A stretch of DNA of 64,000 nt from NCBI GenBank assembly GCA_021234155.1, contig JAJEKV010000047.1, positions 3,338,494 to 3,402,493 of the forward strand. The letters are read 5' to 3'. This document shows, in pieces, positions 24,236 to 57,299 of this stretch; within the stretch, counting starts at the first letter, position 1, and each line of letters begins with the position of its first letter. The translations under genes and the position numbers were made by a program. This DNA is from Isoetes taiwanensis (Eukaryota; Streptophyta; Lycopodiopsida; Isoetales; Isoetaceae). Below the pieces are notes generated by a model. That model searched no databases and was not told the DNA's origin. It saw only the letters and a program-made list of their open reading frames with translations.

Positions 24236-24243
24236 ATTCCATC
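24236..24243. repeat. Left 8-bp target-site duplication of the hAT-like element
   Basis: ATTCCATC directly precedes the terminus TAGGGATAGG. The right counterpart is ATTCCCTC at 43,558-43,565 (7 of 8 match). Eight base pairs is the duplication length of the hAT superfamily. Confidence 0.75.
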
Positions 24244-24268
24244 TAGGGATAGGTTCAATACGCTGTAC
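24244..24268 (+). repeat. Left terminal inverted repeat
   Basis: TAGGGATAGGTTCAATACGC matches the inverted right end (CAGGGATAGGTTCTATTCG) at about 16 of the first 19 positions. Further inside, both ends carry TATACGTA-like sequence and then the palindrome array. Confidence 0.75.
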
Positions 24269-24365
24269 GTTTTATACGAAATACGTATGAATTGTATGAT
24301 ACGGCACAAATTTGCCGTATAAAACGTAAAAAATACGGCAAAAAACAATTCCGGCGTTGGAAGAT

Positions 24366-24608
24366 TTCGCGTACGCGAAAACAACTAGAATGCGTACGTA
24401 AACCTTCGAAAGCGCATACGCGAAACCAATTTTTTTTCGCGTATGCGAAAACAACAGAGTCGCGTACGCGAAAATTTTTTCGCGTACGCGTTTTAGTTGT
24501 TTTCGCGTACGCGAAATAATTTAAACTTCGCGTACGCAGTTCTCAGTGTTCGCGTACGCGAAAAAAAGGTTCGCGTACGCCAATCTGTTGCTTTCGCGTA
24601 CGCGAAAA
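24366..24608. repeat. Left subterminal palindrome array (about 11 copies related to TTCGCGTACGCGAA)
   Basis: Copies occur at intervals of about 14-30 bp. Most are exact CGCGTACGCG; some carry changes (GCGTACGTAA, GCATACGCGAA, CGCGTATGCGAA, CGCGTACGCAG). Subterminal repeats of this sort are bound by hAT transposases. The self-complementary motif also gives each copy several potential CpG methylation sites. Confidence 0.85.
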
Positions 24609-25045
24609 TTTTCGAGCTGTTTTTCCCCAATTTACTAAGCAAAAAAAAAGTTTGCGCCTCTGTTTGGCCTGTTTTGTGGCACTATTAATAGTATATATAA
24701 GAAAAACGTGATTAGCCCTAGAATTCACCTCAAACGTTGACTGCCAGGTTGAGTCAAAATACTCCTTGGGAAACGGTTTGCCTTTGAGGTGTCGTTTTTC
24801 GTGTCACGAGCCTGACGTTGGATACTGGAATGTGAGTTTACTCCGTCCTAGTGGTTTCCAGCCTTGGGTTCGTATCTGCTTCCATAGAATATCCTATAGG
24901 GTCCTGTCCAACCCCTCTTGATTCTCGTACGGAACGTCGACGTAACGTATACATTGTGAGCTTACTCCTTTGCATATATACGTCTTCCTTTAGTTCGTGT
25001 AATCAAGGAGTCAGATTAACAGACATTGTCAGCGAGGTCCGAGCA

Positions 25046-27535
25046 ATGGCTACTGGTCATGCATCTACCTCTGGAGGTGCAGGCAGCGGTCATGGATCCA
25101 CCTCTAGAGGTGCGAGGACTGCGCGTGCCCGTGGCAGGGCCACGGAGACTGCACCCCGTCCACGGGGTCGCGTTATTGGAGTTGCGGATCGGAGAAGAGG
25201 CCCAGAATGGGATTTTGTGAAAGAGTTTAGCGTAAATGAGTGGAAATATGTGTTTTATGGATACTCATCGGTAAATGGTTCTGCAACAAGAATTCGAGCT
25301 CACATCTTACGTGAACGAGACGTCGGTGTCCCGACTTGTACTGCATCTGCTGACTTGCGAAAGGATACCATTGAAAGGTTGTCTCGACTGGATGTGATAC
25401 GCAAAACGAAGAATAATACGAGAAAAAGACGAGTTACGGATACTCAACAGCAGTGCCGGGCAGGAGAAGACGAAGATAACTATACCACCCCCCCTGTTGG
25501 GACAGCATACCAATCAGAGGGAGGACTAGGGTCAATAGGTATAAGCACGGGAGAGCAGAGAATGATAGAGACAGTTGAAATAGTGGAAAGACAGACGAAG
25601 CAACAGAGGGTTGATGATTGCTTAACATCAGAGCAACTGAAGAAGACGCAATTGAAGGTTGTAGAGGCATTTTTATATTCCGGGTTGTCTCCACATATTT
25701 TGGAGCACAAAGCAATGAAAGAAGCCTTCCAAGAAGTTGCCAAAGCAGGGCCGGCTTTTAATTTGCCTTCATACAAGCATGCCAACAATAAAATGGTAGA
25801 AAAAATGGTCGAGAGGATGGAGATGAAGTTGTGTCGTGTGACTGAAGCCAGGCCAGCTTTACTAGTGACTGATGGTTGGAGCAATGTAAACAAGGACCAT
25901 CTTATAAACTTCATGATCGTGTATCCAGGGGGTGAAGTATTTTTGAAACCCGTAGAAACTAAAACTGACCAAGTGACAGGGGATTGTATTTTTCAGAAAA
26001 CAAAGGCCGTGATAGAGAGTTTTGGACCGAAGAGAATATTTCAGGTTGTAATGGATAACGCGTCTAATTGCAAGCTAGCGGGTTCGCTATTGGAGTCTGA
26101 ATTTCCAGGGTTGCACGCTACTAGATGCCAATGCCATTGCCTGAACCTATTGCTCAAGGATTGGTTCTCACAGCACACGTGGTTCAAAGATCCCATTCAG
26201 AAAGCGCGTCAGCTTGTAAAATTCATCACAAAGAAGCCAGCAATTTATGCCATTTACAAGTCATTGCGTCAGAAGACCCTAGCACTTATGAATCCTGGGC
26301 AAACCCGATTTGGTTCCAATTACATCTGTCTTGAAAGAGTGCTTAAGTGTCGTGATTGGATTATCTCAATCTCAATCTTCAATCATACAGAGTTTTTTGA
26401 ATGGGAAAGGAGGCAGAAAGGGAAAAATGCCGCCAAACACCGACAACAAGCCGCTGCCCTTCGAGAAATGCTTGGGCGGGAGACATTTTGGAAAGGTGTA
26501 AAGAATGTTGTGAGGTGCATGCAACCTGTTTGTCATGCCATCAAAACCATTGATTCTTCGAAGGCAAGCACTGGAAAGGTCTGAAGGTGTTGGCACTCCA
26601 TTCAATCCTTCCTAGAACGTGATGGCCCTAATGCGCCATTTGACAATGCTAAACGCGCAGCACTACTCAGAGACTTCAATGAACGATGGAAGAAGTCATA
26701 CAATGATCTTCATGGCACCGCACATGCCTTAGACCTGCACAACCACGATATGGACCAGCATACAGATAAAGAAGTGATGGTTTCGTTGAAGAAGGTTGCA
26801 AAAATGTTCTATCCTAACAGCTCGGACTACAAGCTTTTCATTGCCGAGTTAACTGAATACCAGAACCTGAGTGGAAGGTGGGCAGATGAAGAGCTTCACG
26901 ACGCACTGGAGAGTCATAAGAAGGAACCAAATGTGGAATCTTATGCATGGTGGCAAGCCCACTGGCAAGTTACTGATACCTTGCAGGCAATTGCAATGAC
27001 TATCCTCTCCTTGGTATCTTCCAATAGTGCAAGTGAGAGGAATTGAAGTGCCTATAAGTATATACGCAGTGTCACCCGCAATCGCTTGCTACATAAGAAG
27101 GCAGACAAACTTGTATACAACTTCTCAAATTGGCAGCTATTGAATCACAACAGTGGTACACCTGCAATCAATAAGCTACAGTTTCCTTTCATGGATGCAG
27201 ATTCCGAAGTGGAAGAGGACAGCTTCGAAGACAGTGAGGACAAGCTGCTTGCAATAAATGCTGCAAACCATGTTGACGAAGACATTCAGCGTACCCACTT
27301 CGTTGATGACGAAGATGATATAGGCCAAGCCATATTCTCAGACGAGTCAGCCGACAGCGAAGATACCGAGGAGTCCGACACAGATAGGCCAGGTCCGAGC
27401 AATCTAGTTGAGGATTTGACTGGCCTACGTGATCCATCAGACTATCCTTCGCGCTTTACCTTGACAAACAAAGAACGTGCTAGAAGAAACATGTCTCGAG
27501 GACGTTGCACCAAGGGAAAGGGTCCCGGAGGTTGA
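25046..27535 (+). pseudogene. hAT transposase (BED-like / DUF659 / hAT C-terminal dimerisation), two premature TGA stops
   Basis: One continuous frame of 829 codons if the two stops are read through; an upstream extension to 24,851 also lacks stops. I prefer the ATG at 25,046, which opens a Gly/Ser/Arg-rich N-terminus. Residues 55-98 look like a BED zinc finger, but the expected Cys pair is Tyr68/Tyr71 (WKYVFYGY), while His86 and Cys98 remain. The DUF659/RNase-H-like core has LVTDGWSN (Asp276) and VVMDNASN (Asp337), followed by CHCLNLLLKD. The C-terminal hAT block has SASERN (Glu664), giving the D-D-E triad, then YKYIRSVTRNRL and an acidic tail. Stops are at codon 513 (26,582) and codon 667 (27,044, where hAT proteins have Trp after SERN). 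A possible poly-A signal AATAAA lies at 27,687. It encodes the enzyme that would have moved the element, and it is now dead. Confidence 0.9.
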
Positions 27536-28051
27536 ACCTAGGTCACCGACCAGAAGAGGATGGAACTCCGAATGATGAAACTGATGAGGAAGGTGCTGCA
27601 TAGAAAGATGATGTGATGAGTATCTTCAGTCTATTGTAACCGTTCATGAGGATTTTTAAACTATTGTAACCGTCCCCGGCACTATTAATAAAAAGTAAAG
27701 TTTTTTGTTATAAGTTTTTGTCTTCTATACGTTTCGTTCATGTATGATGGTTCTTTCATGTATGATGGATCTTTCTATGTTTCTATCAGGTGTACGCCAG
27801 ATTGGCACTTGAATGCTATCAGGATCGTATACTCTGTACTCCATTCCTTTGGATGACACATGCTCTACATACCTAATGGGTTTGCATGGCAGATGTTGCC
27901 CAAAGGAATGGAGGTACAGATACACAATCCTGATGGCATTCAAACGCATGCCAAGGGGCCAAGCGGCCACGAACCAGTTGAGACATTTCTGATCTTGAAG
28001 AGGGTTCACAAGATACATAATCCACATCGTCCCACCCAATGGACAGGGTAA

Positions 28052-28243
28052 GGCATAACTCCGGTACGCCAAATTGGGATTTAAATGCCATCAGGACCTA
28101 TAATCTGTACTCTATTCCTTTGGGTGGCACATGCTCTAAATACCAAATGGGTTTACATGGCAGATGCCGCCCAAAGGAATGGAGGTACAAATTATAGGTC
28201 CGGATGGCATTCAAATGCCGATTATGCATACCGGAGTTACGCC
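28052..28243. ncRNA. Hairpin family I, longest stem (candidate foldback RNA)
   Basis: The left arm 28,052-28,127 and right arm 28,166-28,243 pair over about 76 nt with scattered mismatches. For example, CATCAGGACCTATAATCTG faces CAAATTATAGGTCCGGATG, and ATTCCTTTGGG faces CCCAAAGGAAT. The loop is about 40 nt and holds ATGCTCTAAATACC. A shorter relative lies at 27,811-27,941 with the same CATTCCTTTGG stem core and a similar loop. This is a candidate precursor only. Confidence 0.5.
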
Positions 28244-28368
28244 ATACATATCCAGTGGATGAGACGATGTTAAACATCATTATGTGTCACTCTGCAATCA
28301 ACACTCGACCTGAACCACTTGAGAGACTTCACCCCGCACGCCCCAAAGACCTATACGCCCAAAGACCT

Positions 28369-28503
28369 GAGTGCAAGCATCGAGACGTCCCAATCTTTGC
28401 TTTCACCCGCCTCTTTGGACAATGGAACTTAGCATGTAAACTAAGCTACATTGCCCAAAGAGGCGGGGGAAAGAAAAACTGGGAAGTCTCGATGCTTGAA
28501 CTC
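28369..28503. ncRNA. Hairpin family II, copy 1 (candidate foldback RNA)
   Basis: Arms 28,369-28,423 and 28,449-28,503: GAGTGCAAGCATCGAGAC pairs with the inverse of GTCTCGATGCTTGAACTC, and CCGCCTCTTTGGACAATG pairs with the inverse of CATTGCCCAAAGAGGCGG. The loop GAACTTAGCATG... is nearly identical in copy 2 at 29,621-29,735. Stem length and mismatch density resemble plant MIRNA foldbacks. Confidence 0.5.
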
Positions 28504-28990
28504 ATCAATCACTAATCTCTAATGAACCCACAGAATCGCAAGCAACCACTAGGCTGATATCATCCGTGGCCACAATAAAAATAGAGTACTCAAAAACCTT
28601 GTTACCTCCGTCCTTGTACAATCTACCACCACGCCGAATGGGACGCGTCCTCTAATTTCAAGTCATAGTGATGCTCAAGGTTCTCCATCAATAGCAGGAG
28701 TTAGGATGTTCCATGATTTGGTGCCTAACAGCCGCTATATAGATGGACAACGCCCAGGCACCACTTTGGCTTGAAATTAGGGTACGCTCTCACCTCTGAC
28801 GTCATAGCAACTTGCATAAGAGAACTTTTACCTCTAGAATGAACGATTTTTGCTCTGGCTCCCATTTTGAGTCTCTTTGTGTAATATAACCTAGCAAGGT
28901 AAGTAAGCTACATTGACACAGAGAGACTACAAAAGAGAGTCAAAGCAAAGCTCGCTCTTTCTAAAGGAGGTAACAAGAATTTCGAGAAGT

Positions 28991-29347
28991 ATAAGGGGAT
29001 TCTATTCATTTTTCAAATGTAACTGGGATCTGGATTTAAGCAGTGTGCAGTAGGGGTTTATCAGGATGTTGGATGGAGGCTCTTCGTCTTCAGCGGGATT
29101 TTCTCCTAAGTTCTTGTTGCTTGGAATTGGCTGCTAACTCCATATAGTATCTAAGCCTGGATGAAGACGGTTTTTCCTATAGTAATCCAGGGGTAGGGAA
29201 GATTGGAGTGGTAGCTTTTTAGTACAATCCTTGACACTTACGAGTTATATCCGCTTTGTGATAATTCTTTCCATCAATCCCATTTGGGGATATCCTATGT
29301 AAATTTTTATATATTAATACATACTCTTACCCTCAAAAAAAAAAAAA
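28991..29347 (+). mobile_element. Short poly-A retroposon inserted in the hairpin array
   Basis: A 357-bp insert interrupts the repeated hairpin unit and is flanked by the 13-bp duplication AATTTCGAGAAGT (28,978-28,990 and 29,348-29,360). It ends in a poly-A run. The paralogous site at about 29,988 is uninterrupted. Its last ~60 bp (CATACTCTTACCCTC before poly-A, preceded by a TATATTAATA stretch) resemble the 3' end of the L1 at 31,368 read on its own strand (GTACTCTTACCATC before poly-A). It is therefore either a 5'-truncated L1 copy or a SINE that borrows the L1 tail. Confidence 0.85.
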
Positions 29348-30371
29348 AATTTCGAGAAGTCTATATTGTTTGCCACGGAGAATATCAGGCCTGGTGAGTT
29401 GACAACCATTCAAGAGGGTCACGGTCCAGGCTTACTTTCTTTTCGATTATCCTGTTTGTATATATCTAAAGTGCCCCCTAAAATGAGCGAGCGATCTCAT
29501 CCTAGGGGGCACTTTAGATACAACAAACAGGACAAAGAAAAGAGACTAAGCCAGGATGAAAGAGATGACAGTTAGTCCACTAATCCTGAATTAAAGCATC
29601 GCGAATGCCCAAATCGACCTGAGTGCAAGCATCGAGACTTCCCACCTCTTTGGACAATGGAACTTAGCATGTAAATTAAGCTACATTGCCCAAAGAGGAG
29701 GGGAAAGAAAGATTGGAAAGTCTCGATGCTTGAACTCATCAATCACTAACATCTAATGAACCCACAGAATCGCAAGCAACCACTAGGCTGATATCATCCG
29801 TGGCCACAATAAAAATAGAGTACTCAAAAACCTTGTTACCTCCTCTAGAACGAATGTTTTTTGCTCCAGATCCCATTTGGGGCGTCTTTGTGTAATATAA
29901 CCTAGCAAAGTAACTAAGCTACATTGACACAGAGACATCCCAAAAGAGAGCCAGAGCAAAACCGCTCTATCTAAATGGGGTAACAAGAATTTCGAGAAGT
30001 CTATATTGTTTGCCACGGAGAACATCAAGACTGGTGAGCTGACAACCATTCAATAGGGCCGCGCTCCAAGCTTACTCTCTTTTCGAGTTTCCTGCTTGAT
30101 GTATCTAATTCGCCACCTAAAATGAGTGAGCGACCTCATCCTAGGGGTCAAATTAGACACATCAAATAAAACAAAAGAGACTAAGCCAGGGTGAAAGATT
30201 GGGAAGTCTCGATGCTTTCACTCAGAATCGCAAGCAACCACTCTCTTTTCGATTTTCCTGTTTGACAAGAATCTAAAGGTTTATTTGAAATAACGTCATT
30301 ACACCTTATTATCCATTCACAAAATGATACAGGTCAAAATTTGATCACTCTCAAAATTTAATGTCTCATTT

Positions 30372-31367
30372 TCATTGGTCATTTGGGTCAACCCAATCAC
30401 CCTGTGGCCCTGGAGGTGGTGGTAGGAACTGATTAATGTCTGGCACTACCTCTCCTTCACGCGGTTCCTCCACTCCCCTCCACAATTCCATCTCACGATA
30501 ACTCTCAAAAGTGTGCATCTGCCCATCTCTCCTGCGAGCGACTAGTTGTGGCAGAGCTGGCATGCGACCTTGCATATTTAATATGGCATATTGTAACTCA
30601 GGAAAAATCCATCCGTCTTGCATTGGACAGAAGCGGCTTTGCAACATCCAATCAAGAGCACATCGCATGTGCAGGCGATGCCCACACCCTGGAGTGTACC
30701 AGCCCACCTATGTCAGGTTGTCACCACACAACTGGCAATGTCTGAAATCAGCAAGCTTTAGCTCTTCCCACTGGCTCTCATACAAATACTCGCGAGGGAG
30801 ATAGGAAATCGACTGCTCTGAAGTCACCCTAAAAGGGTCAGAGTCCAACGATCTTGTCAGATTGCGCAAGTGATCGTTGTTTTTCCTGAGGACCGTTGCC
30901 TCTCTGTTCAATGCCACTAGCTGCCGTTTAGTGTCCTCTAATTCCGCGGCCATCTTGTCATACTCATCGGCACGGTCCTTTAAGCGAATATTCTCTTCGG
31001 AAAGGGTTAGGTTTCGACTTCTCTCATTCTCCAATTGGGCTCGAATATCTACAAGGTCATTCACGGCTCCAGCCGCGGCTACCCCTGCCACCTCCAAAAG
31101 TTGGATAGCGTCAGCAACAAGATATGTAATGGTGATAGGCTCACCATGTGCCCCACTCTCGCTATCTTCCGATAGCTTGACCCTCTTGGTGCTGCCACTA
31201 CCACTTCCTTGCCTCCATTTTCTACTCCCATAATTTACGGGCACTTCCTTCACAAGCTCGTAGTATACTTGATGCGCAAAACTCTTACTAAACTCACCGT
31301 TGTGGGGTAAATGTCCCTTCACTTGGACATACCGCTCGACTGCTTTTGCTCGAACCACAGCAATCTT
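30372..31367 (-). pseudogene. RING-type coiled-coil protein, C-terminal part (hAT cargo), L1-interrupted
   Basis: This is the 3' part of the gene whose 5' part is at 39,780-40,195. The L1 split it at GCAATCTT. The minus-strand frame reads VRAKAVERYVQVKGHLPHNG, then a basic patch (GSTKRVKLSED), a long coiled coil (QLENERSRNLTLSEENIRLK through REATVLRKNNDHLRNLT), and then CQLCGDNLT, an in-frame TAG at about 30,708, then GCGHRLHMRCALDW and RFCPMQ. The C-x2-C ... C-x-H-x2-H-x2-C ... C-P pattern is that of a RING/RING-H2-like zinc module, with the final Cys apparently replaced. It ends with a Pro-rich tail at 30,372. I infer an E3-ligase-like or zinc-binding adaptor protein. The paralogue from 54,097 lacks this whole part because the tandem junction cuts it. 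I do not recognise a specific family. Confidence 0.65.
31360..31367. repeat. L1 target-site duplication, left copy
   Basis: GCAATCTT at 31,360-31,367, directly followed by the poly-T (poly-A on the minus strand) of the L1. It matches 39,780-39,787. The empty site is seen at 54,188-54,195, where a single GCAATCTT joins the two gene halves. Confidence 0.95.
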
Positions 31368-31469
31368 TTTTTTTTTTTTGATGGTAAGAGTACGATATAT
31401 TAATTAATATAGTAAATATTTGTACAATGTACCCCTATATGGGGATAGTTGCGGACGTAATACTGTCAA

Positions 31470-32660
31470 TCATGGCCTTTGTAAATCCCGACTATCATCG
31501 TCTTCAGCTAACCAATGACACTTGAAGAATATGTAAAATCCTTGAATTCTGCCAATCCTGTCCAGAGCTTTATTGTAGTGGCGACCAAATTTTCGATGAT
31601 GGGCTAAAGCCATTAGGGCCACCTCCATATTGAAAATGTTTTTCAGCTTATTCAGGGAAAGCTCTTGCTGGCCCAAAGCAATGCCACATCTATGTTTCCA
31701 TATAGCCCACATGGCTATGTTGACAAGAGATGCCGAAATAATTTTCCCATCTGATACCATCAATATTCCTGGCCATTGTAACATATCAATACCTATAAGA
31801 GGACATACCCAATCCCAGTTACAGACTTTGGGACAAAAGAATAAGTGTCGCGAGGGTTTACGTACTATTGCAACCAAGAGGGCACCTATTGGTACGAAAG
31901 TGATCCCCTTTGAGAAAGCCGATCCATAGTGTTGAGTCCCCTTGCAAGTGTTAACCATCCAAGAACTGCAACCTTTTAGAGCATAGTGTAGTCCATGAAT
32001 TGGTTAGTAATTTTCTAGCTTGAATAATTTCCACTCCTAGCCTGTCAGCAGCCTTTTCAGGGGATCCTGGACAAAGAAGGTTGTAGAGAGTACTGACAAC
32101 ATATTTTTCTTTCTGCTCACAACTCCATCGGTCATTGGGGCCATCCTTACCTGAGAGGACCTCTAAAGTACACCGAATATCCCGAAAGATCTTTCTATCT
32201 CCCTCGCCCGCATTATGCACCTTGTTCTTAAAGCGGGACCAGGAGAGCCATCTGTCACCATCCCATAGATGCCCCACCTTAGTAACTCCTGATTGCCTCC
32301 ATTTAATGAAAATACGGGGGTGTGTAAGAGCTAGGGGTAGGCTATTTCTCGACCATATCTTCAGATTCCAAAAATACTCAGACTTACCAGCCTCCTTGGG
32401 TGCATCCATAGGCTCGAATAGTTTTGAACTTCCAACCAAAGCTTCAAGTAGCTTTCGCGATAATCGGAGATGTGCACGGGCTATTTTATAGCTAAAGAAG
32501 AAGGAACCAACTTCATCACGGGGGGTAAAGATGGCTTACCTTTTAGAGTACAATGCTTTGGAGCCAATACATGACAAAGTGCGAGAGCGGGGAGGTGATA
32601 CCATGTAATGCTCTCCGGACAAACTTTCCAGCAAGTACCTGTGCTTGGGTTGTCAAATTT
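31470..32660 (-). pseudogene. L1 ORF2 C-terminal region (zinc-knuckle/zf-RVT-like)
   Basis: The minus-strand frames 31,951-32,439 and 31,470-31,958 read FLWNLKIW-like EYFWNLKIWSRNSLPLALTH, then HLFFCPKVCNWDWVCPLIGI and IAMWAIWKHRCGIALGQ. This is the layout of the zf-RVT region and tail downstream of RT in plant L1s (HLFF.C......W). The connecting stretch to the RT (about 32,440-32,705) reads GGMGCKNLTT and LAGKFVRRALHG with stops. At least three frame changes are present. The region normally helps RNA binding during target-primed reverse transcription. Confidence 0.7.
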
Positions 32661-32704
32661 TTGCATCCCATTCCGCCATCACTCTTGGCAAGACACATTT
32701 CCGT

Positions 32705-33978: not shown

Positions 33979-35277
33979 CTAGTTTTGGAGTACTGATTCA
34001 TAATCATTGGGGAGAGGGTCCTCCTTGAACATTTTCTGAAAGCTTTCCCTAATATATGAACCAATCCCATCAATAGAATCAAACTTATTCTGTTGGTCAT
34101 CAGTAATAGATGTGATACTATTCTCAGCCAAACGGGCTCCTGCAAGCCTGAAGAAGTGTTTGGAATTTTCATGATCTGCTTCTGTATACCACTTAGTTTT
34201 GGATCTTACTGCAGCCCCTCTAGCTTCTTCTTCTTCAATAGCTTTTGCTCTGCCCTCAAGATCAGCTTCCAAAGAGTGGAGGGTAACATTGAAGGGGTCT
34301 ATTAGGAGATCTTGTTTGGTGATTCTAAGCTGATCATAAATATCATTTTTGGCTTTTCTAAACCCCTGAGCCCTATCCTGCCCCCATTTTTTAACCCAAA
34401 CCTTGATGTCCTTAATCTCCTGAATCCAGGCCTTCATACTAGGCACCCCATCCACTTGATGTCGGTTAGCAAGAAAGACCCGAAAAGAGTCACAGAATGA
34501 GGACTTTCCGATCAATGAAGTGTTAAATTTGAACGGCACATTTCCAGTTCTCCGGACAGAGGGAGCATCTTCAAATGTGAGTTTTTGTGGGACGTGATCA
34601 GATTGGGTGAAGGCCAAATCCCCTTCAACAAAGCATCTATCCAAGAATCTAGCTGTTCTGTTAGCTAGATAGAATCTGTCTAGTAAACAATAAACACGGT
34701 CATGCCCTTTCTGCTTATTGGACCAGGAGAATGAGGTATTTGAAGGAGGGATCAAAGTAAATCCCACACTATCAAGTAGAGAGTTCCAAGCTGCATCCTC
34801 CTCTGCAGAGAGATTTCTATGAAGTCCAATCTTCTGGTCCCATATATCGGTCATGTTCAAGTATCCCCCCATTAGCCAGTTTTCAACCTCCTGTCGGGCG
34901 ATCCAAATTTCGATCTCTTTCCACAAAATGGCCCTTTCTGCAGGTTTATTAGAAGCGTAAATATTGAGAAGGCCCCATCTACAATCCTCTGTTTCGAGAA
35001 CAATGGCCTGCCACCTACCATTTGTACCTTTATGCTGGAATTTTACCTTTTGTCCTTTCCATAGTAGAGCAGTACCCCCCTTTGTACCTAAAGCTGGGCA
35101 GGTAAATGAGTCGTATTGCCCCCCTACCCAAGTACCAAGGGAACTAGCCTCGAAATCTGGTAATCTGTGCTCTTGAATAAGGATGATGTCTGCAGCCATA
35201 GACCTTATTGCTGCAAGGACTCTGGCACGTTTTAGTGTCCCCTTGATCCCCCTTAGATTCCAAGATATCACTTTCAT
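33979..35277 (-). CDS. L1 ORF2 endonuclease and linker (open, 432 codons)
   Basis: Starts MKVISWNLRGIKGTLKR, where the Asn of SWNLRG is the first endonuclease motif. It then has IILIQEHRLPD (catalytic Glu), LLNIYAS, WLMGGYLNM (the usual GDFN motif is changed to GGYLN), WSNKQKG, CLLDRFYL and FTQSDHVPQKL (the SDH motif; the usual SDHxPI is mostly kept). It belongs to the EEP/APE nuclease family, which nicks target DNA to prime reverse transcription. GGYLNM in place of GDFNM removes a conserved Asp, so the enzyme would probably be impaired. The frame stops at a TAG at 33,979-33,981 and the RT follows in the same frame. Confidence 0.85.
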   Translation of the reverse strand: MKVISWNLRGIKGTLKRARVLAAIRSMAADIILIQEHRLPDFEASSLGTWVGGQYDSFTCPALGTKGGTALLWKGQKVKFQHKGTNGRWQAIVLETEDCRWGLLNIYASNKPAERAILWKEIEIWIARQEVENWLMGGYLNMTDIWDQKIGLHRNLSAEEDAAWNSLLDSVGFTLIPPSNTSFSWSNKQKGHDRVYCLLDRFYLANRTARFLDRCFVEGDLAFTQSDHVPQKLTFEDAPSVRRTGNVPFKFNTSLIGKSSFCDSFRVFLANRHQVDGVPSMKAWIQEIKDIKVWVKKWGQDRAQGFRKAKNDIYDQLRITKQDLLIDPFNVTLHSLEADLEGRAKAIEEEEARGAAVRSKTKWYTEADHENSKHFFRLAGARLAENSITSITDDQQNKFDSIDGIGSYIRESFQKMFKEDPLPNDYESVLQN

Positions 35278-35968
35278 TTTAATTTACCTTTTGTGCCCCT
35301 GTCAAACATGAGACCATCTCTATCCCATTCCCCACCTCAATGTTGCTATAGTTGGGTAGGTGGCTTTGTATAGTGATTTGCCAAATAGCATTAAAAGCCC
35401 TATCCCATTGAAAGTTCTCCCATCGAGTTCTTCCCCATTTTATGGCCCCCCCATTGTTGCCATAGTAGAGTAGGTAGTGATGTATATTGTAATTGTTGTG
35501 CAAAATAACATTGTATGTGTAATCCCAAAAATTACTTTCAAAACACTTCTTGATGTTGCTAAGGTTGAATTGTGTGATGTATTTGCTTTGTCGAATAACC
35601 ATATATGGAACCCTTAATTTCCTTCCTAAGCATGAAAAGGCACACCAGTGATAGGAATAAAGATAAGTATTTAGCTTATACATGTCGCAAAAAGTAGAGT
35701 ATCAAGCCATCAGGAGACGGCGATTTGAAGAACTAGGGGATATCATCCACACCTAGTATAAGACGGCCATAACCGACCTTGTTGCACTTACATTTGTGCA
35801 TAAGCACAATACATGTCCTGTTTTGTTTTAACATTCCAAAGAGATGTACTAACGAACTAGTTGGAGCATTTGTGGCAAACTTTCAGAACCAAAAACTAAC
35901 CTCAACCATTGCAGTTCCTCCAGAACCATCTTCAGAGAACCAAGTATGCATGTCATCAGAATCATAGA
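35278..35968 (-). other. L1 ORF1-ORF2 spacer
   Basis: About 690 bp between ORF1 and ORF2. The minus strand has a 134-codon open frame (35,279-35,683), rich in Asn and Tyr, that ends just before the ORF2 ATG and has no recognised domain. It also contains two diverged copies of a short phrase (CAAATAGCATTAAAAGCC-like and CAAAATAACATTGTATG-like) next to CCCATTTTATGG. Most plant L1s have overlapping or closely spaced ORFs, so this is unusually long. Confidence 0.5.
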
Positions 35969-38044
35969 TCAAAAACAACCAACCTCTGGTTCCTCAGAAT
36001 TTTTTGTCCTGATTTGTTCCGGGTCTCTACCCCACCAGTATTCTCGCAAGGATTTCCCATCCACCAGCCTTCTACCTTTTTTCTTGGTTAACAGAGGTGT
36101 AGATGCCTGAACAGGCCCAGCTTCCTCTTTGTCTGTCTTCTCCACAATCATTGAATCCTCATGAGTATTAGTTGCAAGCTTTATGTAGCTGGCTGGGGCA
36201 TCACATTCCAGCTCAGAATCCACTGTTTCACAAGGAGTTACAACAGTAGAGATAGGCCCCAAAATGACATTGGCTTTGCAATAAGATTGACTCTGCTGCA
36301 CCACAACTACTTGAGAGTCATCAGCTGTCCGAGAATCATTTGTTACTCCATCCGATCTATGTAACTTGTGGGCTGGTTCTTTTGGTAGCAGGCCCTTAAG
36401 AATAGGCTGTAGTATCAAATGATCATGGCAATCAAGAGATGTATTGACCTGCTCAGCCCTGCCTTGCTTATCTTCCCCAACAGAAGCTTCCTCCCGAGTA
36501 GAATTTGTGAAAGCATCTGTTTGATCAATAGCTGATTGTGTTTGAGTAGGCAAGATGGCTTCCACTTCATTAGGTTTAGGAGCCACAACATTGGCCGAAA
36601 GATGTGTAGCCACATAAGGAATGGGTCTAGTCTGAGTTGAATCCAGCTGAGAAGAATGAGAGGAGCCCATGGCGGTATGGATTGGCTCACCTGTCTTAGA
36701 GAAGTCAATAGAGGTGATATCCATATGATTCCTGCAGATAGGAGCAGCTGGCATATCCATCAGATCACTTGCTGGGCCAGTTGCTGACTGGGGTTCAGTG
36801 GACAAGCTGGCGTCCACCTCATTAGGCCCATGAGCCACGTCACTAGGCCTATGGGCCATTTCAGTAATGGGATCTATGTCAGGGACCACATCATTGTGTT
36901 GACAAGTCAAAGAAGCAGGGGCTTGAGTGCCAAAATCTAGAGATAGATTTGAAATCCTTGACTGATCTGGGATCTTTGACTGGTCAAAGATTGAAGCAGA
37001 AAGGGGGCCTTCAAGGACCACGTTTTCCACATGTTGGTCAGCTGCAGAATGACCAACCATGTTTTCCCCCTTTTGGATAGAGATTGGCAGAGAAGATGGA
37101 AGAGGATCAATAGTTTCCATAGGCTTTTCATACTGGTCAATCATATCCATTCGTCCAGACTTCGAACATTCTCCCTTTTCGTATGGGAGACAAGGGGGAT
37201 CTGTCAGACCAGAAAATTCCCGGCAACTAACTGCAGCCAAACAGTTTTGCTTTTTAACTTGGGATCCAGGGATGTGGCAATGATCCTCTGGCCCAGCACC
37301 TATTGCCATATCAACAACTGAATAACCAGTAAAACAGTTGGTCCCAGCATGCAAACGGACACCACATGCAGCATATGGAATGGGCAGACCAGTAGCCACA
37401 ATTTGGAAGTTGATATCCTCATTAAAATAACCAGAGAAATGAATGAACTCAGGTATCGGCTTGAGGAGGTCCACCGAGATGCAGATCTTGGGGGCTTCAT
37501 CCAGCCTACTATCCATGCATACATATTCCCCAAGTCTAGAAGCAATAAGTTTGAATGACTGGACATTCCAGTATTCCGGGCTAAGATCGGACAGAGAGAT
37601 CCAAATTGGGTAATAGAGGGCATCGGGCTTGAAGGCACGAAATTCAGCCCGATACTTTTGTAGGAAGAACTGCCCATGAGGAGTAGAGATCAAACCCTTA
37701 CGGAATAAAGCATCAATCTCCCTAGATGTGGCAGCTGTTAGCAGGAAATAAGTGTTGCCCAAAATCTGAACTCTGATCTCTGTTTTGGACCTACGTACTC
37801 TTTCAAGAGTTTTTTTTATCTCAGTCCTGCTCGGGTTACCTCTACATATTTTGCCAATGAGACCGAACTTCTCAAAGTACCGGATCCTATCTGCTACAAG
37901 AGCAGTATGAAGAGAGAGTTTGCCTTGCGGGATGGCTGGCATTTTCCCTTTAGAAGTAGGGGAGAGAGCAGGGGCTGAGACTTGAGCAAAAGTTCTACCG
38001 TCCAGCCTACCAGAGGAAGCCATAACTGGACCTTGCTTCTCCAT
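35969..38044 (-). CDS. L1 ORF1 (DUF4283 and zinc-knuckle gag-like protein), 691 aa, open
   Basis: Starts MEKQGPVMASSGRLDGRTFA. Around residues 50-130 is ADRIRYFEKFGLIGKICR, then YFLLTAATSREIDALF. Around residues 140-240 the DUF4283-like core reads YYPIWISLSDLSPEYWNVQS, LGEYVCMDSRLD, ICISVDLLKPIPEF, and PIPYAACGVRLHAGTNC, where plant L1 ORF1 normally has a C-x2-C..GH...C knuckle. Here part of that knuckle is recognisable. The C-terminal half is a long Ser/Thr/Glu-rich low-complexity region ending KKKGRRLVDGKSLREYWWGRD. ORF1 proteins bind LINE RNA. The whole frame is open, in contrast to ORF2. The ATG lies immediately after a TAG ending an upstream frame (TATTAGATGGAG). Confidence 0.85.
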   Translation of the reverse strand: MEKQGPVMASSGRLDGRTFAQVSAPALSPTSKGKMPAIPQGKLSLHTALVADRIRYFEKFGLIGKICRGNPSRTEIKKTLERVRRSKTEIRVQILGNTYFLLTAATSREIDALFRKGLISTPHGQFFLQKYRAEFRAFKPDALYYPIWISLSDLSPEYWNVQSFKLIASRLGEYVCMDSRLDEAPKICISVDLLKPIPEFIHFSGYFNEDINFQIVATGLPIPYAACGVRLHAGTNCFTGYSVVDMAIGAGPEDHCHIPGSQVKKQNCLAAVSCREFSGLTDPPCLPYEKGECSKSGRMDMIDQYEKPMETIDPLPSSLPISIQKGENMVGHSAADQHVENVVLEGPLSASIFDQSKIPDQSRISNLSLDFGTQAPASLTCQHNDVVPDIDPITEMAHRPSDVAHGPNEVDASLSTEPQSATGPASDLMDMPAAPICRNHMDITSIDFSKTGEPIHTAMGSSHSSQLDSTQTRPIPYVATHLSANVVAPKPNEVEAILPTQTQSAIDQTDAFTNSTREEASVGEDKQGRAEQVNTSLDCHDHLILQPILKGLLPKEPAHKLHRSDGVTNDSRTADDSQVVVVQQSQSYCKANVILGPISTVVTPCETVDSELECDAPASYIKLATNTHEDSMIVEKTDKEEAGPVQASTPLLTKKKGRRLVDGKSLREYWWGRDPEQIRTKNSEEPEVGCF

Positions 38045-39604
38045 CTAATACAATTCCAATAGGAATTCTTCAGCCCCAAAGAAGTCACACCGGACCACCA
38101 GAGAGTGCCTTGGGAGGGCGAGATAATCACCAAAGATAAGATGTCTAATAGACCTTCGAACTTCCAGCTGTTCTCCGAGAATGACAAGACCCCCTAAACA
38201 CCTGAATTGATCTTGATGAAGAACACCGTGATCAAGAATAGTAGCCCAAAGCTCACCAACTGGACCACTAAGAACCCCCCAAAAAAGATGAGTGAGGTTG
38301 ACAAGAACTATTGATCTGTAGATAGGACGCTGGGCGCATGGGGAGCCGGGTCGGGGAGAGATAATGTAAGGTTGAGAGCTTGGGGACCTGAAAGAAGGAG
38401 GTGGAGACTCAAGCGGTAGAAGGGGAGATCTGGGAGAAGGTGGAGGCGATTCAGGAGGTAGCGGGGGAGAAACAGAGTTAGCAGGAGAAGCAAAGAAAGT
38501 CCAAAGGAGGAGGCGAACCCAATGGCAATGGAGGAGATACAGAGTTAATAGGAGGAAGAGAAAAACTCAGAAAAGAAAGTGGAGAATCCATTCCAGAGAT
38601 ATCATTGGCTTTCCAGAAGTTATGGCCTAAGAAGTTATGGTCTGTAAACTTCCAAGAGAATGTAGTCTACCATGACAGGGTAAAAGATTCTAAACTTTGA
38701 AAAGCAAGGTTGATCAGCCCCTAAAAAAGCAATTTTCCACTCAAGAGCAGTGGCCTCAGGATCAAGGGACGTTGTAACTGCTTCTCCTTTGTAGAAAAGG
38801 TCAGGGAAGATGTTCTCATCAACTAAATAAGTCCAAAGTTCAAAGATTGAACCTTCTAACCAGCCACAAAAAACCTCCTGATCTTTGAAACCAACCACAA
38901 AGTATTTGCCTGGATCAAGAAGTAGAGGAGGATTTTGGGTTGATTGAGAGTTGGAGCAGACTATAGAGAGGGGCAGTGGACGACCCATTTGGTTGCCAAG
39001 AGGGAATATAAAGGCCAAACAGCACTCATTTCACCAGGACAGTACCGGATAAGGTGCAATAAATTCATGCAATAGATATGGAAGATTAAGAGGCCAAGAA
39101 GGGGCGTGAAACAGAACTAGATTGGGCCTGACTGTAGAGGGAGTTTGTAAGATCAAAGCTAGAAAGCTGATTGCAGGCTCCTGCATGCTGGATATGAGCA
39201 GTCCACATGTGTAAAGTACCGGAAAGCAGACGAATGTTGCAGCAATCCCATCATATGGAATGGTAGCATCTCAAACAGAGAAATCAGTAGATCTTGACAA
39301 TGATCTTCCCGTCAGCCCATTCGCTGTGTACATGAAAAACACCAGCAGCCGATGCCTCTGTATCACCAACGAAATCTCCTAGCCAGCTTTCTACTAAAGC
39401 ATGTGGAATCTCTGGGGTTATCCCAGCTTCTCCAATGTAGAGATGATCCGGGAAGAATCTATCTTCAACCAGAGCAACCCAAATCTCAGTTATTGAACCT
39501 TCTAGCCAGCCGCACTGATAATGATCACCGTGGATTATGATCGTGAAGTATTTGCCGAGTCTGCTTCTCTTAGGCTGAAGTTCAATGGGCAACGGCACAC
39601 CCAT
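38045..39604 (-). other. L1 5' region encoding three related ~100-aa modules (ORF0-like, broken)
   Basis: Three minus-strand stretches share one pattern. Module 1 (39,604-39,284): GKYFTIIIHGDHYQCGWLEG, SITEIWVALVEDRFFPDHLY, then HSEWADGKIIVKIY. Module 2 (39,018-38,635): GKYFVVGFKDQEVFCGWLEG, SIFELWTYLVDENIFPDLFY, then MVDYILLEVYRP. Module 3 (about 38,300-38,045): FWGVLSGPVGELWATILDHG, ending FFGAEEFLLELY and a TAG. Conserved points are a G-W-x-EG or G-x-LSG turn, [EL]W, a (V/I)-D/E-(D/H) step and a terminal E/K-(V/L/I)-Y. Between modules 2 and 3 is a Pro/Ser/Leu-rich stretch. Module 3 ends in the same frame as ORF1 with only TAG between them. I know of no named domain with this pattern; it looks like a repeated, perhaps nucleic-acid-binding, module. 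Confidence 0.6.
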
Positions 39605-39779
39605 GAGCTAAAAGATTCGTGAACAAAGGGGCAAGCCCTCTACAAGGGCCTGCAATCGAACCCAAGATCGAACAGAGAAAGGTAGAATCAAAGATGGAGG
39701 TCAGAACTAGGTAAGGAGGTCCCGTTGGCGAAAATAGAGGCGCAGGCGCTCGCGACCATTGCGACCATCCGGGAACCTT

Positions 39780-39787
39780 GCAATCTT
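39780..39787. repeat. L1 target-site duplication, right copy
   Basis: GCAATCTT at the 5' end of the minus-strand L1; see the left copy at 31,360-31,367. Confidence 0.95.
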
Positions 39788-40195
39788 GCACTCGTGAGCC
39801 TTATACTTACCCCTCCTACTAGGCCACTCTCTTTCAAACTCATTCTTGTCCAAATTTGTGACTACGTCGTCGTAGTCTGCTCCATGCGGACAATAGCCTG
39901 GCCCTGCCTCGCCAGCTACATTATGCACCTCTGTGATGGTGCAATTATCCCTCTTTGAAACTTCCTCCATCGCACGCAGCCTTCTTAACTCAGCCGTGCG
40001 ATACTCATTCGCTCTTGCATGTGCTGCTGCTTTCTCCATTTGCCGAGCAGCTGACATTTCAAGTTCGTTCTCCAGGGTTTGCCGCCAAGGAGAGGGGGTC
40101 CTCAAATTCGAGGGTACCGAAAAATCATGCTGACCCAGCTGCTCCAATGTATCCACGTTGTGTGGAGGAGATTCGTCGTCCTGTTCACGAGACAT
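39780..40195 (-). pseudogene. RING-type coiled-coil protein, N-terminal part (hAT cargo)
   Basis: The ATG at 40,195 opens MSREQDDESPPHNVDTLEQL, then LRTPSPWRQTLENELEMSAA, an Ala/Glu/Arg-rich helical stretch (RQMEKAAAHARANEYRTAEL), CTITEVHNVAGEAGPGYCPHG, FEREWPSRRGKYKAHECKIA, and then the L1. The paralogue from 54,097 shows the undisturbed join CKIAVVRAKAVERY. The gene therefore encoded roughly 138 residues here plus about 330 downstream, giving a coiled-coil protein with a C-terminal RING-like module. It lies about 250 bp downstream of the kinase gene stop, on the same strand. Confidence 0.65.
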
Positions 40196-40445
40196 AATTA
40201 TAGTGCTGACTTGTATAGGTGTGCTTTGACTTCTTGTCTTTATAATTTTCGTTAGCTGCGACATATAAAAAAGCACAAAATAAATAACACAAAAAACACA
40301 CGAAAAGAAGAGCTAAGCTACACACATGGATAAAAATTTCTCAAATAGCATCAAATAAGCGTTTAATGAATTTATTTGGAATATTATATAGTACAAGAAT
40401 GTTTGAATGTAAATTTATGGTCTTGTGAATAACAGAATATGCATG

Positions 40446-42179
40446 CTAAGCGTGACTAGGACCAGCTTGGTCTAATGCGTCGTCGCCACCGCGGCCAAGT
40501 TGAAGAATCCAATCTGATTCCAATTGTGGCCTTGTGCACGGAATTGGAGAGCAATGAAAACTGCTCCGCATGGTGTCAATTAGCTGGGCCATATCAATTT
40601 TTCGTGTTTTTTCTCTCATTGGCGACTCAACGCAATGTTTCAAATAGTCGCACATTCTCTGATGCTTGCCTTGCTGCTCCAGGCTTCCTATTGACTCTAT
40701 GTAGGAGTGCTTACTAGCAAAGTCAGCTAAGTAGTATACAATGTACGCTGCCCCGTGCAAATCAAAGTCAACCCTTGCAGGCACTGTCTTCGAGCCACTA
40801 CCAAAATAAAGATCATCGTGCATATATGGATGCCTGGCCCTTTCCATCTCAATTCTTTTCTTACCTTTGCCATCCAAACCCTTGTAATGCCATCGTTTTA
40901 CCTCCATATTGTCTCGCCGATCAACCTGGATTCACCCCAATCACAAATGCCAATGTATACAGCCTGAGGATCAATACATCTCTTCTCCTTTCCATAATCA
41001 AAATGGAGCAATATATTGCTCGGATGCAAGTCCATATGCAAATATCTTTCTTGATGGAGTTTTCGTAGCCGCTGCAGAATGACATTGCCAAGTCCCCAAC
41101 CCTAGAGGCAATAAATAATTCTTTCTTTCTGTGCTCCTCAAGCAGCCTCAAGTCCGTCTCAACTCTGGGGACAGCTCCTAACTTCTTAAATGCAAGCTCT
41201 GCAAAAGCATTGCACCCATGACTTGTAAAGAAGGTTGCCAACGAACCTCCATTCCAAAAAGAGAAAATTAACCCTTGTCTTTCTAGGCCGGTTGTGCTAC
41301 CAATGCAGCGTATTATACACCCGTGCCTAACTTGCATTCCAGACTCCCTCATGTTCTTCAACATAACTTCCACTAACTTATTGGGATCTGTACTTCGCTG
41401 AAAATTATTATGTTGAAGTTTTACACAATAAGGTTCATCCTTAATAAAACTAGACCCTAAAATATTGCACTTATACACTGCGCCATATGAACCAGAACCA
41501 ATTTGTTGTCTGTTTATTATTTGTGATGAATCTACTTTGGCAAACCAAGTTGTCTTGGCATCTGCTCTTCTATGAGCTTCCCACTCCCTATCTGTCTCAG
41601 CAGGACGTGTGGCTTTTATAGTTTGCGCCAACACTTTCTTAACAAGATGAGGGGGTTGATGGGCTTCTTTCTTCAATTTTCTGTTGGTCCATGCCACATT
41701 CCATGTGCTGGCTTTTTCTTTTAGCTCTAGCCTCAAGCGATGACTACTCAAATTTGCAACTTCTGTGATCATATTCCCGGTAGTGCGGCTAATATTACCC
41801 ACTATCCATGTATATCTCTCTTGCTCACTCTTTTCAGGCTCTAGATCCATCATTCGAAGCTTAAAAGCCCTCTCGGCATCTTTTACCAGCCCTGCATGGT
41901 AGTCTAGCCATCCTTCCTCGCTGTTGGTAGTCAATTCCAAATCCTGAGCTGAGGCATTGCACAGCCGGTTACACAACCAGTTCATGAATTCTGGTCTCAA
42001 AGTAGACCATGCTTGTTGTGGTCTAGTTCTTTTTCTACGCGGCAGTGCTGCAGAAGATGACTCAGGTTGCAGCTTTGTAGCCTCTGAGGCGCCAATGCCT
42101 CTACTGGTTGCGGCTCTATCTGAGACACTAATGCCACATTTGGTTGCGAGTTAACTTCTGCTCTCTCTTCTAAAGTCAT
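40446..42179 (-). pseudogene. Protein-kinase-like gene (hAT cargo), copy A, frameshifted
   Basis: The same gene as 54,853-56,589. The N-terminal part from 42,179 is shifted by a 4-bp deletion near 42,090, after which 42,000-41,080 reads the long N-terminal region and the kinase N-lobe: GSGSYGAVYKCN (Gly-rich loop), YCVKLQHNN (the Lys of the VAIK position), and LIFSFWNGGSLATFF (hinge). A 1-bp loss near 41,075 then shifts the frame before the catalytic loop; the paralogue shows LHMDLHPSNILL there. Past the shift, CIDPQAVYIGICDWGESR keeps a DWG in place of DFG. A +2-bp change near 40,905 shifts it again. The C-lobe continues as VDFDLHGAAYIVYYLADFAS to the stop at 40,446. Three indels disable it. 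Sequence is otherwise near-identical to copy B. Confidence 0.8.
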
Positions 42180-43290
42180 ACTGCTTGTTTTAAGGGATTG
42201 TCTAGCTAGCTAGCAAAATGGGACTCCACGACAATACGCAAATGACAACAGCAACACCTACAAGTCAAGCAAAGATAAAACTTTCAATTTAGTGCTTAGC
42301 ACATGAGGGTAAATCAACTCACTTTGACCAAAACAAAACGCTAATTTTACGCTACTACGCTAAGACCCTAACATTTTATCCTATTACTTAGTAAATTTTA
42401 ATTGGTTCATAAGTATGTATGTGCAAGGCCAAGGATGGGGTAACACATGAAAGGACCAAAACACGATTTATGATCTATAGCCCAGCTACTGCCAAAATGT
42501 GAGCCTAGCAAGTTTAAAATGCATTGCACTTGTCCCAGGTCGCGCTTTTTCAAAAGACGAGACCAATCGAATGCTTACTAAAACATACGCCAGTTCCTAT
42601 ATTGGTGTCGGACTTTCATCAACAACACCATCAAGAACTAGGGTGTGAATTAATAAAACATTCTCTTAACCCTTAATAAGAGTACAACGCACACCTTTTG
42701 ACACCGCGTGACCAAGGCCAACAACGGCGTCAGGCGAGGGTTATATTTCTTAAAAAAGGGAGACCCTAGTTGCCTTAAACTTCTGCAGTGCCACCCAACC
42801 TCGGCATGGCGCAAATAAATGCGCCAATACCAGGCAAGGGGCATGCCTACGCTCTTGGCAACACGAAACCCTAAAAAAGCACTAAACCTAATTGATACTA
42901 AAGTTGTCGTTTAAGGGAAGGCAACAAAAATTTGTTTTTTTTTTGTTTCTTTTTATTTTTATTTTTTATTTTGGTCTTAAATTATTATTTGTCTTAAATT
43001 ATTGTTTTCTTTTTTATTTTTATTTTTTTTCTAAAATAGGCCAAGCTCAGCCCACAGAACAAGGCACTCACCATCGTCACGCCCCTTACACAGGGAGGCA
43101 ACAGGTGAGGGCCTAACTGTGGACCTAACCTGGCCTAACTATAAAAAAGAAACAACAAAAAAAAAACCTAAAAACTAAGAAAAACAAAAAAAAAAAAAAG
43201 TTTTTGGGGGGCAAGTTGGAAGGTTGGGCGCAGAAGATACCTTCTTTTGCGGGGCGAAAACTGAAACACCGCGCCGCATATATATAAAAA
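42180..43290. other. Upstream region of the kinase gene, no gene
   Basis: Non-coding stretch between the kinase ATG and the palindrome array. It includes T-rich low-complexity runs (42,935-43,032) and a 5'-GGGGGGCAAG-type patch near 43,205. It would contain the minus-strand promoter for the kinase gene, but I cannot point to a core promoter with confidence. Confidence 0.4.
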
Positions 43291-43293
43291 AAC

Positions 43294-43440
43294 TTCGCGT
43301 ACGCGAAACGTAGTAAACTGCGTACGCGAACACCGCGCGTACGCGAAATTTTTTCGCGTACGCGAAACACATAGTTTTGCCTCGCAAAATTCAAATCTGA
43401 GTTTTGTGTACGCAAAATATGAAGGTTTCGCGTACGCGAA
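43294..43440. repeat. Right subterminal palindrome array (about 6 copies related to TTCGCGTACGCGAA)
   Basis: Copies at about 43,294, 43,320, 43,335, 43,353, 43,407 (variant GTGTACGCAAAA) and 43,427. Same motif as the left array, as expected of subterminal repeats from one element. In the paralogous copy most of these are replaced by other sequence (57,600-57,730). Confidence 0.85.
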
Positions 43441-43529
43441 TTTTTTTTTCCGGTCGGCGACCTTTAAATACGTTATATACGTATTTTATTAAAAATATAT
43501 ATATTTTTTCTTTATACGTCAGGAATTTG

Positions 43530-43557
43530 AATTTTGTACGAATAGAACCTATCCCTG
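43530..43557 (-). repeat. Right terminal inverted repeat and 8-bp duplication (43,558-43,565)
   Basis: GAACCTATCCCTG ends the element. It is followed by ATTCCCTC, which matches the left flank ATTCCATC at 7 of 8 positions. The same end is duplicated at 57,898-57,918. Confidence 0.75.
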
Positions 43558-43959
43558 ATTCCCTCTGGAGAACCATTTGGCTCATTTCATCTTCTAGTGC
43601 GATTTAAGACGACATGGACGGATGAACATTGTGTAGGAGAGTTTTAGAAGGCAAGTGTCTCCCATATTTAAAACCTACGGATGTGACATTATACTGCAGC
43701 CCTTTGAAGAGGTAAGAACCATGTTTTTTGCATAAGAATTTGATGTGGGACTATAACTTGACTCCAGGCTTTCTGAACCCGTTCTAAGTCATCCTAGGTG
43801 ACAAGTGATATCATTGGCCCCATGCTTTCACTTCATATAGAAGAACTGGCAGGACTGACTAGTGGTACCAGTCATAAACCTCTGTTTTACAATAATTGTT
43901 CTATGTTGCATATAAAGCATTCCAGCCTATCATCACCTGATGTTGGATACAAGTATACC

Positions 43960-51063: not shown

Positions 51064-51392
51064 GAAACTATCATTCATTTAAATTGGGATTATATGTCTT
51101 AATTTTGGGACAAATTTCATATTGTATGTTTTTAATAACATATTCAAATTCACACAAACCACCTCAAAAGTATAAAAATGTAATCTCATATTATTTACAA
51201 AGTAATATTTCACAATATAGCACCATATTATAAAAACGTGACGAAGAAAATTTACATAGTTATTCACTTCTATTCAAGCACCTCCAATGATATCATAGCC
51301 TTCTTCCTGACATCCTGAGGTATTGTAATTCTCACATTTCTACCTAAAATAGTTTTTGAAGTCCATGAGTACAATACACTTTCAAAGTCTAG

Positions 51393-54602: not shown

Positions 54603-54852
54603 AATTATAGTGCTGACTTGTATAGGTGTGCTTTGACTTCTTGTCTTTATAATTTTCGTTAGCTGCGACATATAAAAAAGCACAAAATAAATAACACAAA
54701 AAACACACGAAAAGAAGAGCTAAGCTACACACATGGACAAAAATTTCTCAAATAGCATCAAATAAGCGTTTAATGAATTTATTTGGAATATTATATAGTA
54801 CAAGAATGTTTGAATGTAAATTTATGGTCTTGTGAATAACAGAATATGCACG

Positions 54853-57298: not shown

Positions 57299-57299
<1 letters not shown>

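Follow-up and report, generated by a model that had tools for sequence, protein, structure and literature searches.

A stretch of 64,000 nucleotides from the Isoetes taiwanensis genome (contig JAJEKV010000047.1, here C1053, positions 3338494–3402493; hereafter the window) carries, at window positions 24244–43557, one hAT insertion with short terminal inverted repeats (TIRs), an 8-bp target-site duplication, subterminal arrays and a decayed transposase gene. The same unit recurs in the scanned genome (1.66 Gb, 1110 contigs): TIRs and 8-bp duplications enclose a transposase gene, a protein-kinase gene and then a RING/coiled-coil gene that converge on it, and a set of hairpins between the stop codons. 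We propose that these copies represent a cut-and-paste hAT transposon with several genes and a native length of about 10.5 kb, whose kinase, RING protein and hairpins probably serve the spread of the element in its plant host.

The window insertion and its surroundings comprise the following parts (window coordinates).

24236–24243, no strand: left target-site duplication ATTCCATC
24244–24256, plus strand: left TIR TAGGGATAGGTTC
24368–24612, no strand: left subterminal array of CGCGTACGCG palindromes, six exact
25046–27535, plus strand: hAT transposase gene (DUF659 and Dimer_Tnp_hAT by Pfam), with two in-frame TGA codons
27814–30185, minus strand: cluster of eight foldbacks, each folding more stably on the minus strand in the window copy
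27814–27938, 28036–28259, 28386–28487 and 28821–28977, minus strand: foldbacks 1–4
29453–29530, 29621–29721, 29849–29971 and 30091–30185, minus strand: foldbacks 5–8
28991–29349, plus strand: nested 3′ fragment (0.36 kb) of a long interspersed nuclear element (LINE), with duplication TTTCGAGAAGT, inside the foldback cluster
30372–31367, minus strand: RING/coiled-coil gene, 3′ part, with one in-frame TAG
31368–39779, minus strand: nested L1-like LINE (8.4 kb; RVT_1, Exo_endo_phos and DUF4283), with duplication GCAATCTT, inside the RING gene
39780–40195, minus strand: RING/coiled-coil gene, 5′ part
40446–42179, minus strand: protein-kinase gene, with frame breaks near 42085, 41065 and 40910 in the window copy
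43296–43438, no strand: right subterminal array of CGCGTACGCG palindromes, four exact
43545–43557, minus strand: right TIR CAGGGATAGGTTC
43558–43565, no strand: right target-site duplication ATTCCCTC, matching the left ATTCCATC at 7 of 8 positions
54094–57910, minus strand: truncated second copy with the RING 5′ part, the kinase and a right end, whose right flank is the same as that of the element

An earlier note on this DNA, made from the sequence, had taken the stretch for a single insertion; the matching ends, the duplication at 7 of 8 positions and the CGCGTACGCG arrays at both ends agree with it, and Pfam matches and gene order support its reading of kinase-like and RING/coiled-coil genes in tandem on the minus strand beside a transposase. 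Two of its figures have to be revised. The 19-kb span is not the native size, because two LINE insertions bearing duplications of their own (GCAATCTT and TTTCGAGAAGT) lie inside it; without them the element measures about 10.5 kb, and five complete relatives measure 9,715–11,228 bp. The foldback cluster, which lies between the transposase and RING stop codons, holds eight foldbacks rather than nine. The window TIRs read (C/T)AGGGATAGGTTC, and the ends of the family are of the type (C/T)A(A/G)GGATAGGTTC. Exact copies of CGCGTACGCG number 11 in the window against none in 100 shuffles, and exact palindromes of this type are few or absent in the relatives C1028, C1067 and C907.

The right end at 57910 is not an independent insertion: its flank is shared with the element for about 230 bp, and we therefore read 54094–57910 as a duplication, in which the RING stretch is uninterrupted where the LINE splits the window gene. 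There is a residual chance that the window copy exchanged its right flank with this duplicated stretch. Within the nested LINE, two 98-nt stretches upstream of the DUF4283 open reading frame (38771–38868 and 39417–39514) are 71% alike and encode similar peptides, possibly a duplicated N-terminal domain.

Five other elements, each complete with transposase, RING, kinase and hairpins inside, are flanked by perfect 8/8 duplications that differ from one another: C1028 (ATATCAAT), C1067 (CTTCTGGT), C907 (CCGTCGTA), C1076 (GTGGCGAA) and C908 (CTTACCTG). Two more insertions, C257 (CCTGCGAT) and C188 (ATGCTATC), were chosen from end coordinates and also show perfect 8/8 duplications; their ends alone were read, and their interiors are known from genome matches, which place all three genes in C257 and at least a kinase in C188. 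The ends of C257 (352925–395677, with the CCTGCGAT duplication) lie 42.8 kb apart and enclose matches to the kinase, RING and transposase; nested insertions have presumably enlarged what was a 10-kb element. The earlier note had asked whether several insertions with distinct duplications hold the same kinase, RING and hairpin cargo; the five complete relatives do. The findings that it had named as contrary, left and right ends from different elements or kinase and RING genes outside other copies of the termini, did not appear, the full cargo standing between 8/8 duplications. Altogether, element sequence was read in 12 copies (the window included), with both ends recognized in six, the left end only in C1058 and C920, the right end only in C1084 and C1026, and neither in C1100; C490 has a left end, and its right end is doubtful. 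Seven further kinase regions (C13, C1075, C1034, C908b, C1081, C941 and C157) were read in part, three of them with a right end.

Genome matches point to a large family. Those listed include at least 104 for the kinase (1524 candidates, 102 scored), at least 153 for RING (1016 candidates, 150 scored) and at least 92 for the transposase (2154 candidates, 84 scored), which merge into at least 102, 150 and 84 loci, respectively. Among the matches listed, 54 of the 102 kinase loci lie within 15 kb of a RING locus, which is 3′ on the same strand in 52 cases and on the other strand in two. A RING locus lies within 15 kb of 33 of the 84 transposase loci and a kinase locus within 15 kb of 21, all on the opposite strand and convergent, and there are 17 triples of kinase, RING and transposase; the other loci have no partner within this distance among the matches listed. 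Such neighbours would be expected by chance at 0.16–0.29% per locus. The TIR-end pattern CAGGGATAGGTTCNRTACG has 739 + 709 = 1448 exact genome matches, and its reversed control has none. Short derivatives also exist, since the first 100 of these places include at least 14 pairs of ends spaced 0.45–0.78 kb apart. In C908, a 624-bp nonautonomous derivative with TIRs and a perfect duplication (GCTGGTTC) sits in opposite orientation inside a full element of the same family.

Transposition by a hAT transposase is well supported by the anatomy of the element. The window transposase scores 22.5 bits for Dimer_Tnp_hAT (cut-off 21.4) and 97.3 bits for DUF659; the 640-aa open frame of C1026 matches DUF659 and does not match Dimer_Tnp_hAT. 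Both the DUF659-type hAT transposase and the DUF4283-bearing LINE are of kinds associated with plants. No Pfam match to a BED zinc finger was found in either protein, and a CVFC...H...C spacing recognizable by eye in C1026 is lost in the window copy. The features shared with hAT elements are the 8-bp duplications, which are also typical of Ac/Ds, the short TIRs with subterminal repeats and, in the window, the C-terminal dimerization domain.

The kinase protein, of about 600 aa, is encoded in a single open frame, with intact frames of 596–621 aa in both of the lineages, A and B, into which the elements fall. No Pfam match above cut-off covers its first ~230 residues; the remainder is the kinase region. 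Two of three intact proteins exceed the cut-offs for Pkinase (33.3 and 35.5 bits; cut-off 31.7) and PK_Tyr_Ser-Thr (28.6 and 41.0 bits; cut-off 23.1), and the third lies below both. Among 24 distinct kinase loci, the glycine loop is recognizable in 23 (all three glycines in 19), the VK lysine is present in 23, NMRES in 24 and HMDLHP(G/S)N in 19; DWGE, with DWG in place of DFG, is found in 20 of 23. A profile search against the Protein Data Bank (PDB) gave weak matches to RAF kinases (best E 0.0011), and a single-sequence model, with a mean predicted local distance difference test (pLDDT) score of 34.7, is too low in confidence for use as fold evidence. No alpha-kinase family appeared among the Pfam matches of the kinase proteins at E up to 0.1, and six kinase peptide patterns were unmatched in IMG/VR. 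The two most divergent A kinases, C1081 and C941, have open frames; the sequence read around them shows neither recognized ends nor a RING gene. Directly downstream of the intact kinase frame in C941 lies an 818-aa open frame (L033, 3546–5999) that by eye resembles a Helitron replication protein. Helitrons were considered as carriers of these two kinases and dropped, the downstream flanks of the two being different.

The RING gene is likewise a single open frame, of up to 543 aa, and its product is a putative E3 ligase with a RING-like motif. C-x2-C, CGHRxHxRC and C-P are retained in most of 16 copies, and a profile search against PDB returned a weak match to an E3 RING (E 0.0011). The predicted structure contains a long, coiled-coil-like helix at residues 74–170, with block means of 70–96 at residues 91–160.

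We compared substitution patterns in 10 kinase, 10 RING and seven transposase stretches, selected from the collected loci for the length of their matches, by the Nei–Gojobori method with codon bootstrap and with stop codons left out. For the kinase, the ratio of nonsynonymous to synonymous change (ω) is 0.15–0.40 across 24 within-group pairs, with no upper bound above 0.68. It is 0.16–0.29 in six A pairs and 0.23–0.74 in 15 B pairs of RING, and 0.16–0.19 in 12 A–B transposase pairs; one RING B pair without C908 has an upper bound of 0.98. Between A and B, kinase and RING ω values are not exact, because synonymous sites are at or near saturation; for the transposase, synonymous divergence (dS) between the lineages is 0.41–0.78. 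By these measures all three genes bear the mark of purifying selection. The two halves of the element also differ in divergence. When the B elements C1026, C1084 and C908 were compared with C1076 (A), nucleotide identity was 68% for RING and 70–71% for the kinase, against 83–85% for the transposase and 86–91% for the hairpin array, the array values being best local matches that cover only 41–86% of its length. Among A copies the order is reversed (array 81–88%, genes 88–95%). These identities indicate that a kinase–RING half and a transposase–array half of different age were joined, making the elements mosaics.

The hairpin array is present in 11 of the 12 copies read, and 64 hairpin loci from these 11 were analyzed (C1100, where the array is missing, was left out). 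No stems arose in 10 mononucleotide shuffles of two copies. In 59 of 64 cases the minus strand, on which the kinase and RING genes lie, gives the more stable fold, four of the five exceptions belonging to the H1 family; this strand bias suggests RNA precursors. With the register fixed by arm alignment, G:U pairs outnumber A:C pairs 289 to 94 in total, and by family 72:11 in H2, 114:40 in H3, 13:5 in H6, 16:0 in H4 and 27:0 in H7; hairpin copies are related, and the pair counts are therefore not independent. No Rfam family reached its gathering score. Known microRNA (miRNA) families gave sub-threshold matches only, the best (5.6e-6, to mir-4484) being taken as generic hairpin likeness. When 21-mers of seven of the eight window hairpins were compared with the genes of the window itself, nothing matched with three or fewer mismatches and one site matched with four, and self-regulation of transposase, RING or kinase by the hairpins was dropped given this near-empty result. 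Twelve host stretches encoding Argonaute or DNA methylase gave six matches at three mismatches (three of them one overlapping site) and 49 at four, compared with one and 32 for control searches with reversed 21-mers; these are too weak for a host target to be named. Two Piwi-domain genes, L041 and L042, have the complete domain within a single long open frame (509 and 476 aa, respectively), an unusually low number of introns for a plant Argonaute.

Based on these findings, we propose a mechanism by which the cargo could act. The selection on the kinase and RING genes supports the view that they serve the element, and their substrate is conjectural. Most likely, the two proteins would raise transmission of the element by acting, through phosphorylation and ubiquitination, on a host protein responsible for silencing or limiting it; control of the transposase would be a less likely route. 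Host silencing or defence is ranked first because other plant elements carry VANC anti-silencing proteins and the anti-silencing miR820. Transcription of the kinase/RING strand would yield the hairpins as RNA, which Dicer-like enzymes would process into small RNAs acting in trans. Like the earlier note, we infer that host signalling or silencing may be manipulated. A more specific version, in which the kinase and RING ligase disable a host silencing protein, the hairpin-derived small RNAs knock down further host genes and the kinase–RING module moves as one unit between element lineages, is offered tentatively, as the less probable course.

Several observations weigh against this proposal. All three genes of the window copy are broken, and in none of the 12 copies read are all the genes free of stops and frame breaks. 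The five RING pairs that involve the decayed C908 have ω values of 0.43–0.74 with upper bounds up to 1.10, and nine within-group transposase pairs give 0.27–0.71, with one upper bound of 1.17. In the 16 RING copies the motif lacks its usual last cysteine, an aspartate standing one place further on, and the sole Pfam RING score above cut-off is that of zf-C3HC4, in one of two proteins. For the hairpins, the array is missing from one copy of 12, C1100, where only some 305 bases take its place, and the H1 family shows little bias (G:U to A:C 47:38; six of ten more stable on the minus strand). When each alignment column is counted once, H2–H4 (with H6 and H7 merged in) retain 47 G:U against 22 A:C, with singletons at 16:17; in H1 the ratio is 27:12, the excess coming from singletons (17:6), and shared pairs stand at 2:4. 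A minus-strand AATAAA at 30280–30285, about 90 bases past the RING stop, may mark the end of the RING mRNA ahead of the hairpins, and none of 4338 distinct 21-mers matched the 12 host Argonaute or DNA-methylase stretches at 0–2 mismatches.

These points have to be set against other explanations. The two ends could come from separate elements, or kinase and RING could form a host gene cluster lying between them by chance, as the imperfect window duplication (7/8) and the second right end with the same flank at 57910 might suggest. Seven other insertions, in which perfect 8-bp duplications enclose kinase-bearing DNA, have already refuted this for the family; five of the seven were read over their full length and contain every part. 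We give this explanation almost no credence. Alternatively, the two genes might be passive cargo, copies of host genes captured a single time and multiplied by hitch-hiking. Plant DNA transposons commonly pick up genes, stops interrupt many of the copies, and some RING pairs have ω bounds reaching 1. However, the low kinase ω in all 24 within-group pairs and the low RING ω in the six A pairs, the presence of both genes in the same order in two lineages with saturated synonymous sites, and open kinase frames of 596–621 aa in both lineages largely refute passive carriage, which we consider very improbable. A third view is that kinase and RING regulate the element's own transposase (its timing, copy number or cell type) through phosphorylation and turnover, with no attack on the host. 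The convergence of kinase and RING on the transposase wherever they are neighbours among the matches listed would suit such control, as would the fungal IS3EU kinase, which lies opposite to its transposase and is given no stated role in the accessible part of PMC12730594. No sequence feature marks the transposase as a substrate, and tight co-evolution with one transposase is not required, because the kinase–RING module became linked to a transposase half that has diverged less; on balance we regard own-transposase control as possible and rather unlikely.

The array, in turn, may not be a source of small RNAs at all, being instead foldback debris, a bidirectional terminator serving the convergent genes, or an RNA decoy with a structure of its own. 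The slight strand bias of H1, the unreached Rfam gathering scores, the variation in hairpin number and order between copies and the absence of the array from C1100 would all fit. So would the conserved core of H2, which takes in the loop, unlike the core of typical miRNA precursors. Against this stand the occurrence of the array in 11 of 12 copies, the lack of stems in shuffled sequence and the strand asymmetry of H2–H4 and H6–H7. Per-column departures in H2–H4 that recur in half or more of the copies number 11 G:U against 2 A:C, with no such excess in singletons (16:17); in our reading, selection maintained an RNA stem while the elements were active, and neutral decay came afterwards. H1 does not fit this reading, because its G:U excess sits in singletons. 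We keep the small-RNA route as our working proposal for the array and treat a different role as a serious possibility that falls short of probable.

Elsewhere in the window, positions 4261–7779 hold three near-identical blocks of 93-nt-period repeats (starting at 4261, 5942 and 7612, spaced ~1.67–1.68 kb), perhaps a larger tandem array, and a 264-bp unit is repeated in tandem at 50366–51065 (2.6 copies, matches 89%).

How plant transposons escape silencing is understood for few elements, those with VANC proteins and miR820 among them. VANDAL elements of Arabidopsis belong to the Mutator-like superfamily. As far as the accessible parts of the sources go, their VANC proteins counteract host silencing in a sequence-specific manner (PMC5735166, PMC10398659); the Isoetes element is likewise a plant transposon with accessory proteins, and VANC is neither a kinase nor a RING protein. 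Rice CACTA transposons carry miR820, which targets OsDRM2 (PMC3459959, in the part available), and thus offer a plant DNA transposon with an RNA hairpin whose precursor acts on the host. Unlike miR820, for which product and target have been shown, the Isoetes hairpins are candidate precursors, clustered beside protein genes. Maize Ac measures 4.6 kb, and Ac/Ds are hAT elements with short TIRs and subterminal repeats (PMC3260210, in the part available); the Isoetes element is more than twice as long as Ac and has two further conserved genes. Among the open-licence papers listed on gene-bearing hAT or kinase/RING-bearing transposons, no title or abstract opening describes a plant hAT with kinase and RING genes, Repbase lying outside the search, and those listed on IS3EU and alpha-kinases include no title on plant hATs.

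Its more than one thousand marked ends, its two conserved proteins of signalling type and its recurring hairpins make the family a tractable system whose parts can be broken separately. It also means that "kinase" and "RING" genes present in many copies in a genome of this kind can belong to transposons and inflate gene-family counts. Parallels exist in fungi. The rule that hAT elements normally encode only a transposase, as the earlier note had it, has exceptions there: according to the accessible part of PMC12730594, hAT7 elements, like IS3EU, Zisupton and other fungal DNA transposons, carry TET/JBP genes, and in the IS3EU families that bear TET an alpha-kinase gene lies opposite the transposase. 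Kinase-bearing DNA transposons are therefore already known in fungi. Like these elements, the Isoetes element is a cut-and-paste transposon with accessory enzyme genes, which in the fungal case pass between element lineages (PMC12730594). It differs in its kingdom, in having no recognized TET gene and in a kinase that matches Pkinase/PK_Tyr_Ser-Thr rather than alpha-kinase, and it holds a RING gene and a hairpin cluster, which the accessible part of that source does not mention for the fungal elements. Kinase-type accessory genes thus reach beyond fungal elements, into a hAT family of a lycopod plant.

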